From positions 1 through 56,769 of the IMG/VR virus record IMGVR_UViG_3300045973_000630: a stretch of 56,769 nt of DNA. One strand, written 5' to 3'. This stretch comes from a virus. The notes beneath the pieces were generated by a model. That model searched no databases and was not told the origin of the DNA. It worked only from the letters and a program-made list of their open reading frames with translations. The position numbers and the translations under genes are program-made. This document shows positions 4,239 through 36,813 of this stretch, piece by piece (within the stretch, counting starts at the first letter, position 1; each line of letters starts with the position of its first letter).

Positions 4239-5699
4239 TTAAAATCTCAGATCTTTAATTTTACAGTTAAAATTTCTAATATAAATTTCTAGTCGGTTCT
4301 CTAGATGTCTGGCTAAATAATTAGTCCCCTCAAAAAAGAAATCATGCAAGTAAGCAATTGATTTTCCTTCAAACTTTCGAATAGCCCGCCCGGCATTTTG
4401 GACACATAGTATTTCTGATTTTCCCCCTACACAATTGATTAAATGATCAGTGGACTTAATATTAATGCCCTCCCCGATGACGGAAGATCCGATAAGAATT
4501 CGTACTAATTTTTCGTTAAATTCGTTAATTGTATTATTTATTAGTTCTTTTGAGTCATCTCCATTAATATATGAGCAGATTACTCCATGTGTAGTCAAAT
4601 ATTCTGAGATTACAAGTCCAACTTTATCCTTCTGTGAAACTAAGATTAAAACTTGATTATCTAATTCAACATTTTCAATTATTTCCAATATTTTATTTAA
4701 AACCGCGGGATTTCCAGAATAACTCTCTTCATATTCTTTTTGATACTTTGTAATAGGTCTTCCTGGAATTTGATGAACTAGTACTTCAAGTGGAGTTAAA
4801 TACCCTTCTTGAGTAGCTTTCCAAGCTGGGTACTCATATAATATATTAGAGGCTACTCCCCATAGAGCTAGTATGTCGGCTCCTTGACGTAAATATGTTC
4901 CAGAAAACGAAAATCGATAATAAATATGATCAAGATCTGGTAGTAGTGTTAGATAAGATTCCGCGGAAGAATGGTGTGCCTCATCAATAAATAAAGCTTC
5001 CATTTGGAGTGCAAATTTTTGAAATTCTCCAGATTTTTGTAAAGACGCTAGGGACTGAACTGTTATAATATTTATTGCTTTTGGTCGTTTATTTAGTCTA
5101 ATTTTCTTTGCATCTAAAATTTCTACATTTGTAGATCCAAACCATTCTTCGAAATCTGAGTATAATTGTAAACTCAAACCTCTTGACGGAACTATAATTA
5201 AGTTAGTTACCGCAAGTTCTTTAATTAAATATGCTAAAATACAGGTTTTCCCGGAACCGACACAAGAAGAGAAAACACCCCGACCGGCCTCGAGGCCTAG
5301 TCTAATCATTTCCTTTTGATAGTATCTAGGTTCAAAAGGTTTGTTATTCCACCTTAAAATTTGAGAGGACGAAGGAATCTCTCGTCGGTCCTGTACCTCA
5401 AACGGGGTACAAACTTCTTCTAAAGTTGCTTTAACAATGTTTAAAAGCCCAGTAGGAAACTTATTATCTTTGATTAAACATACGTATTCAGTTTTTTCTA
5501 AGTAAGCAATTCGAGCTTTCGCTATATTGTAACCCTTTAAGTTATTGTAACGCTTAGCATTTTGCATACGATAAAAGCAGGCCGCTTTTTCTGCATCGAT
5601 ATCATTTCGATAAGTAAGGACTTCCGTTAGAAGATCTTTAGCTTCTTTAGGTATATTCCCAGAAATGGTTGTAAATGAATTACTAACAATTAGTTGCAT
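4239..5699 (-). CDS. superfamily 2 DNA helicase, UvsW / T5 D10-like
   Basis: 486 residues. A Q-motif-like RYYQKE (125-130) is followed by Walker A GSGKT (148-152), DEAH (239-242), SFSGTY (motif III) and QNAGRAIRK (motif VI). This is the core of the UvsW/D10 group, ATP-driven helicases that unwind branched DNA and promote branch migration, so it should work with UvsX, gp46/47 and the RuvC-like resolvase of the rightward block. It is the first gene of the leftward operon and opens just left of the divergent control region. Confidence 0.9.
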   Translation of the reverse strand: MQLIVSNSFTTISGNIPKEAKDLLTEVLTYRNDIDAEKAACFYRMQNAKRYNNLKGYNIAKARIAYLEKTEYVCLIKDNKFPTGLLNIVKATLEEVCTPFEVQDRREIPSSSQILRWNNKPFEPRYYQKEMIRLGLEAGRGVFSSCVGSGKTCILAYLIKELAVTNLIIVPSRGLSLQLYSDFEEWFGSTNVEILDAKKIRLNKRPKAINIITVQSLASLQKSGEFQKFALQMEALFIDEAHHSSAESYLTLLPDLDHIYYRFSFSGTYLRQGADILALWGVASNILYEYPAWKATQEGYLTPLEVLVHQIPGRPITKYQKEYEESYSGNPAVLNKILEIIENVELDNQVLILVSQKDKVGLVISEYLTTHGVICSYINGDDSKELINNTINEFNEKLVRILIGSSVIGEGINIKSTDHLINCVGGKSEILCVQNAGRAIRKFEGKSIAYLHDFFFEGTNYLARHLENRLEIYIRNFNCKIKDLRF

Positions 5700-5821
5700 T
5701 CACTAATTAAACCCTGATGTGTCAAAAAAGTACAGTTTTAATTTAAATTAAAAATAAATGTTTACTTTTTAAAAGTTCTTAGATAAAAGTTATAGCAACT
5801 AGTAACAAATCGAGGATTAAC
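5700..5821. promoter_or_regulatory. divergent promoter region with an 18-bp perfect palindrome
   Basis: This 122-base AT-rich gap separates the leftward helicase operon from the rightward genes. Bases 5736-5753 form a perfect palindrome, TTTTAATTTAAATTAAAA. TTATAGC near 5790 could serve as a -10 for rightward transcription, and TTGACA on the minus strand near 5722-5727 could serve as a -35 for the leftward operon. The palindrome may be an operator or a melted element; nothing shows which. Confidence 0.5.
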
Positions 5822-6019
5822 ATGTCAAAATTAGAGTCTAAACTACCAGAAATAACTGACTGGCGTAAGTATGTAAACGATTTTACACCAAAAGTAGATC
5901 CAAAAATTAAAGAGCTACTCTTAAAAACTTTAAAAAATAATCCTCGAATTAAAACTAAGCCAAATACAACTAGAATTGATAATTTTCATTTAAACGAAGT
6001 TAAAAAGAATATAAAATAA
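5822..6019 (+). CDS. hypothetical basic protein, 65 aa
   Basis: ATG after GAGG at good spacing. The protein is lysine-rich and ends KKNIK. It opens MSKLESKLPEITDWRKYVND. No domain is recognised. It is the first rightward gene after the divergent promoter and lies directly before the long RNA-like region, so its mRNA may be continuous with that RNA. Confidence 0.65.
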   Translation: MSKLESKLPEITDWRKYVNDFTPKVDPKIKELLLKTLKNNPRIKTKPNTTRIDNFHLNEVKKNIK

Positions 6020-6029
6020 GGAGACCATT

Positions 6030-6560
6030 AAATTCAAGTCTTTGACTTGATGCAGCATCTACGTTAATTGGGACCGTGAAATATACGACTGCAATCAAAT
6101 GACTGGGCAGGTAAAAACTAACCCCGGAAGAGTCGGACCAGGCACACCTCAAAGCAGAAGACCTTATTTCTGTAGCGGTAACTCGCGAAGTGTACTAGGC
6201 ATCGTTGAGAATTTGAGCCTAGCGAAAAGCCCACCGTAGAAAGTAACTTTAAGGGGAGTTTGAAGACCCTTAAATGAAGCCAAGATATAAACCTTCTAGC
6301 GAATTTGTAAGGATTGGAAAACTTATAGTAGTAGCTATCTGGCGGTATTAATTTGGGAGAAATATCTAATAGGTTTGTGAAAACTTTGACTATTAGAAAA
6401 TACCCCCAATAGGTATTGCTTTGCCAAATCCAATAGCATTTAAAATCTTTCATTATTTTGTGAACAACAGCGTTTCACAGCCTCACGCTGTTCGGCGATA
6501 CTCTGGAATGTTGTTCTAAGAAAGAGTCGATCACAACGAAATACCAACAATACCTTAGGA
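6030..6560 (+). ncRNA. candidate large structured RNA (no convincing ORF)
   Basis: About 650 bases (6020-6676) hold no plausible gene; the only ORF longer than 100 codons is on the minus strand and has no protein character. The plus strand holds many perfect stems: 6034-6040/6044-6050; 6195-6200/6217-6222; 6248-6255/6267-6274; 6366-6372/6390-6396, capped inside by GTTT-GTGA-AAAC (a GNRA loop); 6399-6404/6412-6417; 6466-6473/6485-6492; and 6497-6504/6523-6532 with a CG bulge. CGACT (6086)/AGTCG (6131) interleaves with CTGG (6103)/CCAG (6138), a possible pseudoknot. Size and phage setting recall the ornate phage RNAs ROOL and GOLLD, but I cannot assign a class. Ends are approximate and strand is inferred from neighbours. 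Confidence 0.6.
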
Positions 6561-6676
6561 CTATTTGGGAACCTAGTACATGTTTCATATAACTTAATAA
6601 GCTTACGAGTATTATGTGAATTTACTTAAGGAAATAACTAAGATAGAATCTAAGAAAATCCAGGAGGAATTAACAA

Positions 6677-9277
6677 ATGTCAAAACGAATTATTACTCGC
6701 GAACAACTAATAGATCCCAAACTAAAAGGCTTAACTGCAATCTCGAGCGTAGTTAAACGAACTTTAGGACCAGGTGGACTATTAATTTTAATCGAAAGAG
6801 TTGGGCAAACACTAGAAGGACTTCCGCTCGGGCCTAAGATCACAAAGGATGGGGTAAGTGTCGCGGAAGAGTGCGCATCTATAGATAAGGCTGAAGATAT
6901 TATAATTCAAGCGGTTAAGGGAATTTGCCGTAAAACAGTTAGTACTGCGGGTGATGGCCCCCAACCACTTTATAGTAAAGTTCTTACTCCAAAAGGTTTT
7001 ATAGAGATGCGAGATGTAAGGGTTGGGATGGTTATCTGTGGTACTAACGGAACAGTTCAAAAAGTTTTAGGGGTTTTCCCAAAAGGCCAAAAAGAGATCT
7101 ATGAAGTAGAGATTCAAAATAAAGGAATAGTAGAATGTTGCGAAGACCATGTTTGGTCAGTTACTAAAAACAGTAATGGGGGCGCGGATTCTGTAAAATC
7201 TGTAGCGGAACTTATAAAAGATTATAAAAAAGAAGGTATACAGTCTACAAAATATAATTATTATATACCAAAAACTCCGGTTTACTTTCAAGAGAATACT
7301 GCGGAAATGCCCTTAGACCCATATTTACTTGGAGTTTTGTTAGGAGATGGTTGTTTAAAAGATGGTTCTAGTATTGAGTTAGGACTGGGAGTTAAAAAAG
7401 AACATATATTACAAAAATTAAAACCACCTAAGGGAATTAATACAAATATCCAATTTGTAGAGTCTAGGAATTATTTTAGAGTTAAATTTTCAGGTATTTC
7501 GGAGACCGGAAAATCAATGAGAGATTATGTAGAGTCTTTAGGATTAAGAGACGCAGGTAGTTTTACTAAGTTTATTCCAAAATCCTATTTATACGCCTCT
7601 ATTGAAACTAGATCCCAAGTCCTACAAGGATTAATTGATACAGACGGATGCGTTAACGAGCGAGGCTTATTTGAGTTTAGTACAGGCTCAAAAGAACTAG
7701 CAACGGACCTTCGAGACCTAGTTTTGAGTTTAGGTAAGACAGTTCATATGTATCTCAGAGATCGAAGTAATGACAATGCATTCTCAAAGACTCCCATGTA
7801 TAGAATTGGAGAATTAAAAGGATTTATACATGGAGATAAAATAAAAGAAATTAAAGCTACTGGCAGGTTTACCGAAATGCAGTGCATTAAAGTAAGTAAT
7901 CCGGATAGTTTATACATAACGGATAATTATGTAGTTACACATAATACCACAACTGCTATGGTATTAGGTGAAGCAATTGTAAACGAGACCGAGCGCATCT
8001 TAAAAGAAGATACTAAGCTTAACCCGCAATTAGTTAGAGAATCTCTAGAAGAGGCATCTTTACAAGTAATTAAGAAACTTAAAAAGATAGCAATTAAAGT
8101 TAATAATAATAAAACTATCCAACAAGTAGCTACAATCTCTGCAAACGGAGACGAATCTATTGGAGATATTATCGCAGCAGCTTTTGCGCATGTAGGTGCC
8201 GAAGGGGTTGTAACTGTAGATGAGGGACATACTTCAAAAGTTACCTTAGATGTAGTTGACGGATATCAGTTCAATAGGGGCGCCGAGGGTCGTACCGCGT
8301 TTTTCAATAATAGAGACGCAACCCAATTTGAAGCGGAAGATGCAGCATTAATTATTTATGATGGAAAATTATATAACTATACTCAATTAATTCCAGCACT
8401 TAAGTTATTAGCGGGAGTCGGTGCGGATGAAAAAGCATCTCGAAAGATGCCGCCCACTGTAATTGTGGCAAATGAGTTCAGTCCAGAAGTACTTCAGTTC
8501 CTGTTAATTCAAAAAACAGAGATGGGGATGACCTTCTGTCCAATCACTGGACCGAATACTACCCATGTGAGATCTGGGTACTATGATGATTTAGCAGTTT
8601 ACTCAGGTGGAACTAGACTTGGAAATGGAGCACGCAACCTTGAGTCTATTGAAATGGATGATATTGGCCTCGTAAAAAGAGCATTATCTGATAAATATAA
8701 AACTACATTATATGATGGGCAAGGTTCTGAAGAATCAATTCTAGAAAGAGTAGACCAATTAAAAGCTGCAAAAGCACAAGCAGAGTCCCCATATGACGCA
8801 CAAATCTTAAATGATAGACTTGCATCACTAACTAATGGTATAGCTAAAATTGGAGTTGGTGGAACTACTGAAATGGAAATTAAAGAGAAGTATGACCGAA
8901 TAGAGGATGCATTAAACGCAGCACGCGCGGCAATCGAGGAGGGAGTTGTACCAGGCGGTGGAACTACTTTATTAAGAATTGCGTTAGAGATGCCTGAGAA
9001 GACAGTTGGTCAAAAGATCCTAAAAGTAGCATTACAAGCTCCATTCTTTCAAATCTTAGAGAATATTGGTATTTTTAAAGAAGAAGCTCTAGAAGTGTCT
9101 AAAACTCTCGTTAAGAGTAAAAGTAAGGTTTATGATGCAAGAACTAAGCAGATCAAAAATGCGATGACTGCGGGGATTATAGACCCAGTAAAGGTGACTA
9201 GAACTGCCTTGGAGAACGCGGTATCAATAGCAACCCTATTAAGTACTTGCGGTGGAGCAATTACTTACGAAAAATAA
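6677..9277 (+). CDS. groEL: GroEL-type chaperonin interrupted by a class 3 intein
   Basis: The 866-codon precursor splices to a 537-residue chaperonin (E. coli GroEL is 548). Extein motifs are KRTLGPGG, TKDGVSVA, AGDG/TTTA (nucleotide phosphate loop, split by the intein), IEDALNAARAAIEEGVVPGGG in separate short segments near the C-terminus, and no Gly-Met tail. The apical domain (TVDEGH...QFNRG) is more divergent, as expected if it is tuned to a phage substrate. The product should form a ring that folds phage proteins with ATP; the partner is probably the GroES-like protein at 35933. ATG follows AGGAGG. A strong terminator follows at 9307, so the gene is probably a single transcription unit. 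Confidence 0.95.
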   Translation: MSKRIITREQLIDPKLKGLTAISSVVKRTLGPGGLLILIERVGQTLEGLPLGPKITKDGVSVAEECASIDKAEDIIIQAVKGICRKTVSTAGDGPQPLYSKVLTPKGFIEMRDVRVGMVICGTNGTVQKVLGVFPKGQKEIYEVEIQNKGIVECCEDHVWSVTKNSNGGADSVKSVAELIKDYKKEGIQSTKYNYYIPKTPVYFQENTAEMPLDPYLLGVLLGDGCLKDGSSIELGLGVKKEHILQKLKPPKGINTNIQFVESRNYFRVKFSGISETGKSMRDYVESLGLRDAGSFTKFIPKSYLYASIETRSQVLQGLIDTDGCVNERGLFEFSTGSKELATDLRDLVLSLGKTVHMYLRDRSNDNAFSKTPMYRIGELKGFIHGDKIKEIKATGRFTEMQCIKVSNPDSLYITDNYVVTHNTTTAMVLGEAIVNETERILKEDTKLNPQLVRESLEEASLQVIKKLKKIAIKVNNNKTIQQVATISANGDESIGDIIAAAFAHVGAEGVVTVDEGHTSKVTLDVVDGYQFNRGAEGRTAFFNNRDATQFEAEDAALIIYDGKLYNYTQLIPALKLLAGVGADEKASRKMPPTVIVANEFSPEVLQFLLIQKTEMGMTFCPITGPNTTHVRSGYYDDLAVYSGGTRLGNGARNLESIEMDDIGLVKRALSDKYKTTLYDGQGSEESILERVDQLKAAKAQAESPYDAQILNDRLASLTNGIAKIGVGGTTEMEIKEKYDRIEDALNAARAAIEEGVVPGGGTTLLRIALEMPEKTVGQKILKVALQAPFFQILENIGIFKEEALEVSKTLVKSKSKVYDARTKQIKNAMTAGIIDPVKVTRTALENAVSIATLLSTCGGAITYEK
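6959..7945 (+). mobile_element. class 3 intein with LAGLIDADG homing endonuclease, inside groEL
   Basis: Codons 95-423 of the groEL precursor (329 residues) replace nothing in the chaperonin: AGDG before and TTTA after restore AGDGTTTA. The first residue is Pro95, not Cys or Ser. The class 3 WCT triplet is present: Trp160 two residues after block B His158, Cys403 at block F position 4 (QCIKV), and Thr421 before the terminal His-Asn (THN, 421-423). The +1 residue is Thr. Block A reads YSKVLTPKGF. Two dodecapeptides, YLLGVLLGDG (216-225) and LQGLIDTDG (316-324), mark a LAGLIDADG endonuclease. Splicing would use Cys403 as the branching nucleophile. Confidence 0.92.
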
Positions 9278-31992: not shown

Positions 31993-32232
31993 GTGGGAAA
32001 GATAAAAATCTTCGTAGAAGATAACGAATCCCAATTAGAAGTAGAAGAATCTTTACATAAAGCTCTAGAATTTCATAGTTCTGGAGATGTGCATGAAACT
32101 GAATTATTTGAAGATGCGGGAGCTCAAGATTTATTAAATAAACTTGAACTTTTGCATAAAAACTTATATATTCAAATACTTAATGAAATTTATGAAGCTT
32201 TAGACGAGGACTATACAAATGGTAACATCTAA
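31993..32232 (+). CDS. hypothetical acidic protein, 79 aa, GTG start
   Basis: Begins with GTG directly after the portal stop (TAA GTG), probably by re-initiation. Strongly acidic (LEVEESLHKALEF, YEALDEDYTNG). Overlaps the start of the MuF-like gene by 14 bases. It may be a small portal- or head-associated factor; no family is recognised. Confidence 0.65.
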   Translation: MGKIKIFVEDNESQLEVEESLHKALEFHSSGDVHETELFEDAGAQDLLNKLELLHKNLYIQILNEIYEALDEDYTNGNI

Positions 32233-34075
32233 AACAACTCTTGAAAAAATTAGAGAAATCATAAGCAAGAATTACGCTAAATTAGCAATTTCAGTATTAG
32301 GCAAATCTGTGTTAACGGATAAAGAACTTAAAGAGTTAAAAGCACAAGGTATTGATATCTCAAATACAGAATCTCTATTTGCATTATTATATAATCATGC
32401 ATTTATCAATCCACCAGAAGATACTCTAGGACCTAAATCTGTAGAAGATATGGAAAGTCAACAATCGGTAAGAGGGCTCCTCCCAGAAGGTTCTGCACAC
32501 GATTATGTTATAGAAAATCTAAATGATAAAACTAAACAACTTATAGACAAGCTTAAAGTAGATGTAATCTCTAGGGTTGAGGGATTAATACGAGAAAATA
32601 ATGATGTGTATCGAGTTGATGCGCTACAAAATTTAGATAGAACAGATTTGTTGGACGAATTGACTAAGGAGTCTAGCCTAGGAAAACTTAAGCAAAAATT
32701 AAGAGACACATCTAAAGAAGCAAACCGAGACTGGCTAAGAGTAGCAGTTACCGAAATGTCTAATGCTATCGGAATAGCGACCACAGATCGAATTGTGGTA
32801 GATAATAGATCTAAAAATTTAGAAGAGGTCTATGTATATAGAATTGCTCATAAAGATGGAAAAACATGTTTTACTGAGGCCGAAGAAGTATGTATGGCTA
32901 CTGGAGAATTGTGTCAGTTAAAGGATATTAAAGTCGGGGATTTATTACAGTCTGGGACTAGGAAAAAAGACAGAAATATAGGGTCGAAATCTAAAGTAGT
33001 TAGAATAGAGACAAAATTAGCAGAAGTGCTAGAATATCAATTTAGTGATGGAACGGTTATAAAGTGTACGTCTGATCATCCTATTTTAGTAAAATATAAA
33101 AAATTCTTAGGATTTATTCCGGTTTATATGTTAGAAACTACTAAGGTTAAATTTACAGTACCAAAGTACCAAGAGTTAACCACTGGAGAACGTGCAAGTA
33201 TAGGACGTATGCCAAGTTGGGCACTACAAATGGCCCCGAACTATACTGATTTCTTTTACTTTTGGCAAGACTATGGTCCTGAATTACTAGCAGATATTAG
33301 AAAAAGTAACTCATTTAAAGATTTACAAGAAAAATGGCAATTCCCGAAAATTGGTAATTGCCGAAATCTAGGCACGTTAGCCGCACTTTGCGGAGAGTCT
33401 TTTTCTAAATATACTAAAATTTCAAGTGCTAATAATAATTATAATGTAGAGTATCTAGAGCACCTTGCCACTAAATGTTTAGCCAAACTAGATTTAAGCG
33501 CGGAGGACCTAACTCGAGATCTAGGGTTGCACGGCTATAAATTTGTTATTAAAAAGTATAATATCAGTTTTCATATTCTAAAATTTTGGGTTATTCAAAA
33601 TTTAGGAAGTGCTTTTGATAAGAAGATTAGAAAATTAGGAAAAATTAGAGCACAACGAGCCGGTCAAACTAGTATTGCAAATACTCCCGGACTTCGCGAA
33701 AAACTAAATAATGAGGCCAGGACTAGACTAATAAGAAATTGTAAATCTACATCAAAACCTCAACGCGTGTTGTTTAATACTTTAAAATTAACATATCCAG
33801 CTATACAGTTAGAGGTCCCGATATTAGAAGCTTTTCGAGCAGATATTTTATTGAATAATATAATTATAGAATTTGATGGAAGTGGGCACTGGCTATTTGG
33901 AAAAGGTAGTAAAGCGCGAGATGAAGCTAGGGATAGACTTTGTACCCGGTATGGGTATTCTGTAATTAGAATTAAATCCCCAAAAGATAAGCAACCACCA
34001 ATTGAGAGTTTAACTAAGATACTAGAAATAATCAAACCTGGAGAATATAAGGAGATACACTGTGATAGTTTCTAA
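32219..34075 (+). CDS. MuF-like head protein N-half + N-intein + EDxHD endonuclease
   Basis: 618 residues in one frame. Residues 1-216 are the N-terminal part of an SPP1 gp7/MuF-like head morphogenesis protein, ending HKDGKT. Cys217 begins an intein N-half: block A CFTEAEEVCMATGEL, then IKVGDLL, and block B TVIKCTSDHPILV (His287). From about residue 320 a linker with DNA-binding-like helices leads to a C-terminal nuclease: RADILL, IIIEFDGSGHW (Glu551, Asp553, His557), then ARDEARDRLCTRYGYSVIRI, the EDxHD (Vsr-like) homing endonuclease pattern. The gene ends with TAA; the intein C-half is in the next gene. Spliced product is predicted at 302 residues. Confidence 0.88.
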   Translation: MVTSKTTLEKIREIISKNYAKLAISVLGKSVLTDKELKELKAQGIDISNTESLFALLYNHAFINPPEDTLGPKSVEDMESQQSVRGLLPEGSAHDYVIENLNDKTKQLIDKLKVDVISRVEGLIRENNDVYRVDALQNLDRTDLLDELTKESSLGKLKQKLRDTSKEANRDWLRVAVTEMSNAIGIATTDRIVVDNRSKNLEEVYVYRIAHKDGKTCFTEAEEVCMATGELCQLKDIKVGDLLQSGTRKKDRNIGSKSKVVRIETKLAEVLEYQFSDGTVIKCTSDHPILVKYKKFLGFIPVYMLETTKVKFTVPKYQELTTGERASIGRMPSWALQMAPNYTDFFYFWQDYGPELLADIRKSNSFKDLQEKWQFPKIGNCRNLGTLAALCGESFSKYTKISSANNNYNVEYLEHLATKCLAKLDLSAEDLTRDLGLHGYKFVIKKYNISFHILKFWVIQNLGSAFDKKIRKLGKIRAQRAGQTSIANTPGLREKLNNEARTRLIRNCKSTSKPQRVLFNTLKLTYPAIQLEVPILEAFRADILLNNIIIEFDGSGHWLFGKGSKARDEARDRLCTRYGYSVIRIKSPKDKQPPIESLTKILEIIKPGEYKEIHCDSF

Positions 34076-34169
34076 GAAATCATTAGGAGTACAGAATATC
34101 GTAGAGTTAGAACTAGATCAAAATTCTAGCAAAACTTATATAAATAAAGACGGAATTATCTCGCACAAT
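32867..34169 (+). mobile_element. split intein with EDxHD homing endonuclease in the MuF-like gene
   Basis: The N-half starts at Cys217 (base 32867); the C-half ends at Asn36 of the second gene (base 34169). They are interrupted by a stop codon and a new, well-formed translation start (AAGGAG at 34049-34054, GTG at 34062). Joining the exteins gives DGKT-CRWCSEFY, restoring the CxxC metal site of MuF-like proteins. The nuclease lies in the same frame as the N-half, unlike fractured genes in which the nuclease is a separate ORF. Confidence 0.85.
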
Positions 34170-34430
34170 TGCAGATGGTGTTCCGAATTTTATGTTGATA
34201 ACGATGGAAGTCCTAAGCTTTATAAGTTAACTTCATTATTAGATAACGGGTCTAACTACGGTAAAAAACGAGATACTTGGCAAGCCGTTATTGGTGCCAC
34301 CCATCCGAATGAGCGATGTTCTGGTATTTTAGAATTAAAACCCGGGTTTATGCTTAAGTCTGATGGGACCAGTACATATATCGGAATGGCTAAATGGCCT
34401 GGATATATTTTGAATAAAGTTCAAAAATAG
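34062..34430 (+). CDS. C-intein + C-terminal half of MuF-like head protein, GTG start
   Basis: 122 residues from GTG, with AAGGAG seven bases upstream. Residues 1-36 are the intein C-half: VELELDQNSSKTYI (block F) and GIISHN (block G). Residue 37 is Cys (+1), beginning CRWCSEFY, then GATHPNERCSGIL, the Cys/His cluster typical of the end of MuF/gp7 proteins. Trans-splicing with the product of 32219 would rebuild a head protein that joins portal and capsid. The gene overlaps the previous one by 14 bases in another frame. Confidence 0.87.
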   Translation: MIVSKKSLGVQNIVELELDQNSSKTYINKDGIISHNCRWCSEFYVDNDGSPKLYKLTSLLDNGSNYGKKRDTWQAVIGATHPNERCSGILELKPGFMLKSDGTSTYIGMAKWPGYILNKVQK

Positions 34431-36207: not shown

Positions 36208-36813
36208 GTGTCACGTAAATTTAATAAAGAAGATATTGAACGATTTCATGATTACGGGATCTATATACCAAATAGAGTAATTTATATGGGATCTGAATCT
36301 TATGATTTAGACTCAAATGAATCGGGCACTAATGGGTTAATGGCAGAACGTATCTTAAAGAACTTAACGATGTTAGATACACTCTCCCAAGAGCCGATCA
36401 CAATTATATTAAATAATATAGGTGGAGATTTTTACCATGGATTAGCTATTTTTGATGCAATCCAGACTTGTAAATCGCCAGTAACTATAAAGGTTTTTGG
36501 ACATGCTATGTCTATGGGCTCAGTAATATTGCAAGCAGCAGATAGAAGAGTTATGGCAGCAAATGCTAAGCAAATGATACATTATGGTACTTGCGGAATG
36601 AACTCGCACGCTAAGACATTTCAAAAGTGGGCCAAAGAATATGAACGACTAGATAGTTGGATGGAAGACTTATATTTTAAAAGAATCTTAGAAAAACATC
36701 CAGATTTTCCAATATCTAAGTTGAAAAAGATGTTAGATCATGACTCGTTCTTAACCGCACAAGAATCCGTAGATCTAGGATTGGCTGACGAACTTTTAAA
36801 AGTAGGAGAATAA
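36208..36813 (+). CDS. clpP: ClpP-family serine protease
   Basis: 201 residues, GTG start after GAGG. The catalytic triad is complete: Ser102 in GHAMSMGS, His125 in MIHYG, Asp179 in DHDSFLT. IILNNIGGDFYHGLAIFDAI matches the ClpP handle strand. No ATPase partner is in the window. In many phages a ClpP-like enzyme serves as the head maturation protease, but a U35 protease is also present here (38005), so its role is open: it may process another head protein or act with a host Clp ATPase. Confidence 0.9.
   Translation: MSRKFNKEDIERFHDYGIYIPNRVIYMGSESYDLDSNESGTNGLMAERILKNLTMLDTLSQEPITIILNNIGGDFYHGLAIFDAIQTCKSPVTIKVFGHAMSMGSVILQAADRRVMAANAKQMIHYGTCGMNSHAKTFQKWAKEYERLDSWMEDLYFKRILEKHPDFPISKLKKMLDHDSFLTAQESVDLGLADELLKVGE

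Follow-up and report, generated by a model that had tools for sequence, protein, structure and literature searches.

ROOL and GOLLD are phage and prophage RNAs, known from many phages and often encoded beside tRNA islands, that possess extensive covarying structure and form homo-oligomeric cages (PMC12286853). A cryo-EM structure exists for ROOL, and GOLLD RNAs are in many cases longer than 800 nt (PMC12286853); the GOLLD 3′ region is conserved. Here, we analyzed a long gap upstream of groEL in a phage contig with 34% GC (56.8 kb in total, termed the window), for which a preliminary description had proposed a structured RNA recalling ROOL or GOLLD or belonging to a new class. We instead favor, with a probability of about 0.45, a lineage-specific, co-transcribed and hairpin-rich groEL leader acting in cis, over a decayed insertion.

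Comparison with known RNA classes

The window was searched against Rfam with cmscan at gathering thresholds, and positions 5700–6800 at E ≤ 10. A search with all Rfam models, including ROOL, GOLLD, introns and tmRNA, had been suggested in the preliminary description. Both searches returned zero matches; the segment is, thus, not a recognizable ROOL, GOLLD, intron or tmRNA. Neither a tRNA nor a tmRNA was detected by ARAGORN anywhere in the 56.8-kb window. As a positive control, ARAGORN and Rfam both found the tmRNA in a relative’s 114-kb contig. The tmRNA of the related contig IMGVR_UViG_3300021178_000001 (L041:4850–5258) matches RF00023 with 103 bits and carries the tag ANDNVVSLNAFRARKNVVSLQHAA.

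ROOL is roughly similar in length to the segment, which is likewise phage-encoded, non-coding and rich in hairpins; it differs from ROOL in lacking a covariance-model match (E ≤ 10), a tRNA island and a homologue family and in lying in line with groEL. A tRNA-island location is frequent, although not universal, for ROOL and GOLLD, and the window contains no tRNA. GOLLD, also a large non-coding phage RNA, differs in that many members exceed 800 nt and have a conserved 3′ region, whereas the segment yielded no match. The segment has only its phage context and approximate size in common with the ROOL/GOLLD features.

Phage group I and II introns and tmRNA resemble the segment as GC-rich, structured insertions of 250–700 nt in AT-rich phage genomes, but here neither a model match nor a split-gene exon–intron junction nor a tRNA-like domain was found. 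The group I and II intron models (catalytic core and domain V) gave no match at E ≤ 10, and on the flanks both the 65-codon open reading frame (ORF) and the groEL start, which has a Shine–Dalgarno (SD) sequence, are complete. An intron splitting the 65-codon ORF was ruled out because both flanking genes are complete. The window likewise lacks the tRNA-like domain and tag reading frame of a tmRNA. The segment also resembles structured 5′ leaders and intercistronic spacers in the mRNAs of phages and bacteria, which share the position between promoter and gene, the local hairpins and the terminal ordinary SD sequence; the segment differs from these in being unusually long, in following a small ORF and in having neither a homologue nor an identified regulatory motif.

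Locus layout and coding content

The minus strand carries the genes as far as a UvsW-like helicase, and the plus strand those from position 5822 onward (Table 1). The long gap claimed in the preliminary description is genuine, with ~657 nt between the stop of the 65-codon ORF (6019) and the groEL ATG (6677). Upstream of that ORF, the divergent region holds a promoter-like TTTACT...TAAAAG/TTATAG in groEL direction, spaced from the helicase as in relatives; the −10 site lies 84–90 nt and an AAAAAAG element 25 nt from the helicase start. We regard this promoter as putative, given that it was assigned by positional homology and matches the consensus weakly. No terminator-like site occurs within 5600–6800, so read-through into groEL is expected. 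In the predicted ensemble, the groEL SD sequence is 46% unpaired.

Table 1 Features of the helicase–groEL region in window coordinates, with hairpins as predicted for the plus strand
Feature	Position	Strand	Basis
UvsW-like helicase gene	4239–5699	−	Pfam ResIII/Helicase_C
Putative divergent promoter region between helicase (−) and groEL unit (+), AT-rich, 122 nt	5700–5821		AAAAAAG element and promoter-like site
65-codon ORF, probable small gene	5822–6019	+	Gene-like codon score
Hairpin-rich non-coding segment	6020–6660	+	Codon statistics, hairpin counts
Hairpin UCAAGUC-UUU-GACUUGA, 7 bp	6034–6050	+	z −3.37 (piece 6030–6054), P 0.95
Hairpin CUAGGC...GCCUAG, 6 bp	6195–6222	+	z −2.10 (piece 6190–6228), P 0.98
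Hairpin UUUAAGGG...CCCUUAAA, 8 bp	6248–6274	+	z −2.33 (piece 6244–6280), P 0.88
Extended GNRA-capped hairpin domain	6344–6404	+	GGUAUU/AAUACC base, UCUAAUAG/CUAUUAGA, GUUU-GUGA-AAAC tip
Perfect helices of 6, 8 and 8 bp that exclude one another	6459–6516	+	Whole piece z −1.38
groEL	6677–9277	+	SD sequence and start codon, 6663–6679

Coding potential was assessed with codon statistics trained on 33 window genes, for which the mean score was 0.424 (0.42 ± 0.14 bits per codon). The 65-codon ORF scored like genes (0.41 bits per codon) and is probably a real small gene, with no homologue in Pfam/PHROGs, INPHARED, the relatives or seeded IMG/VR scans. Between 6097 and 6546, a coding signal was absent on both strands, the best frame reaching 0.14 bits per codon. 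A 111-codon minus-strand ORF within the segment had a core score of −0.2 to −0.5 and no family match, and no credible protein-family match (Pfam/PHROGs) was obtained for the segment as a whole. With all frames on both strands far below gene scores, the segment is non-coding. The preliminary description had reported no protein-like ORF and had named a coding signal with homologous proteins as one result that would overturn its RNA reading; the codon scores and family searches bear out the former, and the latter was looked for and not found. One PHROGs match (phrog_19790; frame 6462–6575, E = 0.0016), which might have hinted at a protein or at an RNA in common, was dismissed: it had neither tblastn nor codon support, a weak signal also appeared in unrelated control genomes and its score was near expectation for ten noisy translations.

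The cumulative GC skew is lowest near 6000. This minimum and the presence of inverted repeats would fit a DNA-level element, such as an origin of replication or a region bound by a regulator, where the direction of transcription switches. Such an element seems very unlikely, as the gene-strand change would by itself give such a minimum, neither iterons nor strong direct repeats are present and relatives do without such a segment at the same switch point.

Other genes of the window carry features of their own. GroEL contains an in-frame intein of 329 aa (6959–7945) between TAGDG and TTTA; it starts with proline (PQPLYS...), ends in VVTHN and includes a LAGLIDADG_3 domain (E = 2.7e-6). The GroELs of relatives are 536–570 aa long and intein-free. 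A second, probable intein is located at 32219–34430 in a head-morphogenesis-like gene without a Pfam match. That gene is split into overlapping ORFs (32219–34075 and 34062–34430), the first of which seems to contain a Vsr-like nuclease stretch; judged by eye from the sequence, the arrangement resembles ‘fractured genes’, which combine split inteins with EDxHD nucleases. A ClpP-like protease gene among the structural genes (36208–36813; Pfam CLP_protease, E = 7e-31) probably encodes a prohead protease.

Hairpins and folding of the segment

The preliminary description had counted at least seven perfect stems, and we recovered seven of ≥6 bp with loops of ≤20 nt, compared to 3.0 ± 1.7 in 200 dinucleotide shuffles, seven of which reached this number. 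Four stems have ≥7 bp (loops ≤20 nt) versus 0.9 ± 0.9 in shuffles, with 2 of 200 attaining four. The same density, four ≥7-bp stems with at least two G+C each, occurs in 0.18% of the remaining 657-nt windows across the genome and in 0.42% of windows of AT-rich relatives. Local composition is also unusual; a core at 6050–6199 has 47% GC versus 34% genome-wide and is among the 0.4% of 150-nt windows richest in GC. The GNRA-capped helix described earlier is present at 6365–6397 as UCUAAUAG-GUUU-GUGA-AAAC-UUUGA-CUAUUAGA. Pieces for separate folding were picked for containing hairpins, and their z values are therefore flattering, both in Table 1 and for 6150–6175 (−2.8) and the 81-nt GNRA-capped domain (6340–6420; −2.85, pair probabilities of 0.93 and 0.96).

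Stability of the segment as a whole is ordinary. On the plus strand, the minimum free energy (MFE) was −142.5 kcal/mol (z = 0.11 versus shuffles), and the minus strand gave z = −1.48. Sliding 120-nt windows had no excess stability (mean z −0.18 versus a genome background of −0.37), the ensemble entropy of the segment gave no signal of unusual structure and A enrichment in loops did not go beyond composition. The pseudoknot suggested in the preliminary description dissolved into alternatives, as the helices GAACAACA/UGUUGUUC, AACAGCGU/ACGCUGUU and UGUGAA/UUCACA share bases and are mutually exclusive. A long-range 9-bp pairing (6191–6199/6572–6580) is at about chance level for 657 nt (~0.8 by our own estimate), and a local hairpin with P = 0.98 competes for its bases; when pairs could span no more than 400 nt, the long-range helix had P of about 0. 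We, therefore, read the segment as a probable row of local hairpins and not as one large cooperative fold. Hairpin density and local GC lend moderate support to the earlier label ‘structured RNA’, and whole-molecule stability lends it none.

Related phages and the origin of the segment

GroEL-based and helicase-based IMG/VR scans provided nine related contigs (L009–L017), with GroELs 53–73% identical to that of the window, and the more distant L068. Eight of these relatives have the same divergent helicase–groEL arrangement, with an intergenic distance of 303–452 nt and −10 sites in groEL direction 74–101 nt from the helicase start. Their leaders measure ~200–300 nt, versus ~850 nt extra in the window, consisting of the 65-codon ORF and ~640 non-coding nt. 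Since the window keeps the promoter region at the relatives’ spacing, the additional ~850 nt would follow the ancestral promoter and fall within the 5′ portion of the groEL mRNA. Neither the 65-codon ORF nor the segment was found anywhere in the examined DNA of relatives, and the segment, thus, does not belong to the conserved parts of this phage family. An alignment of the eight relatives’ leaders had almost no conserved columns, precluding a common leader RNA model. Several divergent regions among L009–L017 contain GC-rich motifs of the TTCCGCC/GGCGGAA type in both orientations, a possible operator for a phage regulator; the window’s own region lacks them. In L068, an HNH endonuclease gene (1185–1697; Pfam HNH, E = 4e-9) occupies the same divergent helicase–groEL gap, adjoining a 92-codon ORF that resembles a small winged-helix regulator.

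The main rival to a leader is a functionless or decaying insertion, in which the ~850 nt would be what is left of a mobile element or a captured foreign gene and the hairpins incidental. It earns this rank because the locus clearly accepts insertions, as seen from the LAGLIDADG intein in this groEL and the HNH gene in the gap of L068. The absence of the ~850 nt from eight relatives, the deviating GC content and the average whole-region stability point the same way. We nevertheless consider it somewhat unlikely: no frame has a decayed coding signal or protein-family match, the 65-codon ORF is still coding-like and the segment ranks within the top 0.2% of genome windows for hairpin density.

Homologues of the segment were sought in several datasets. 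Sensitive blastn against INPHARED and PLSDB returned only chance matches of 20–40 nt. Seeded scans, which by our own estimate need roughly ≥75–80% identity around the seed, gave no confirmed match in IMG/VR (translations of three segment frames as seeds) or GTDB (one of the three). An exact 16-mer scan produced four matches inside other sequence, all judged to be chance. Searches with nhmmer and BLAST in the complete contigs of ten further phages whose GroEL is related found no segment homologue; other hairpin-dense windows in those contigs looked coding where checked. Across ~900 whole genomes of Alphaproteobacteria, Chlamydiota and Myxococcota, DNA similarity was restricted to AT-rich matches of ~30 nt. 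The absence of homologues is real for cultured phages and weaker for environmental ones.

These results also bear on a free-standing, trans-acting large RNA of a new class, ROOL-like in size and phage setting. Besides those two traits, the multi-hairpin content, the GNRA-capped domain and the missing coding signal would suit it. We judge it quite unlikely, given the lack of an Rfam match at E ≤ 10, of a tRNA island and of an evident promoter or terminator of its own. Long-range architecture is unsupported by the MFE (z of 0.11) and the long-range helix (P of about 0), and no relative appeared in INPHARED, PLSDB or the seeded IMG/VR and GTDB scans, whereas ROOL and GOLLD occur in many phages (PMC12286853). 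A new ornate class, for which the hairpins are the sole support, appears improbable, and we have equally little confidence in its specific form, an RNA of ~600 nt acquired with the 65-codon gene at groEL and serving as a free scaffold, sponge or oligomer during infection.

A proposed cis-acting groEL leader

The segment is non-coding, enriched in hairpins, absent from relatives and situated between the promoter position and groEL. Its placement as untranslated sequence downstream of a putative groEL promoter follows from synteny with eight relatives and from codon statistics. Cis action is likelier than a free ornate RNA because the segment lies in line with groEL, has no evident promoter or terminator of its own and ends in a normal SD sequence. 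Points against a leader are the whole-segment energy, no better than that of shuffles, the lack of a homologue and the weak promoter match.

Beyond a non-coding and hairpin-rich segment, we infer all further steps, including transcription, strand, fold and any effect on groEL. In the favored leader reading, the segment would be the untranslated middle of an mRNA spanning the 65-codon ORF and groEL, peculiar to this phage lineage. Its plus-strand transcript would form local hairpins, five or more of them well supported and one GNRA-capped, in a row stopping just before the ordinary groEL SD sequence. Acting in cis, this row might space the small ORF from groEL, tune the level of groEL translation or provide mRNA protection, processing sites or both. 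A ligand-binding or attenuator architecture was not demonstrable in the segment.

The segment is at present an orphan that is known from one sequence, has no relatives and stands as a documented candidate, and related phages manage without it. If it is a real structured RNA, it would belong to the small number of large RNA candidates from an uncultured, chaperonin-carrying phage clade and would offer an entry point to groEL control in such phages.
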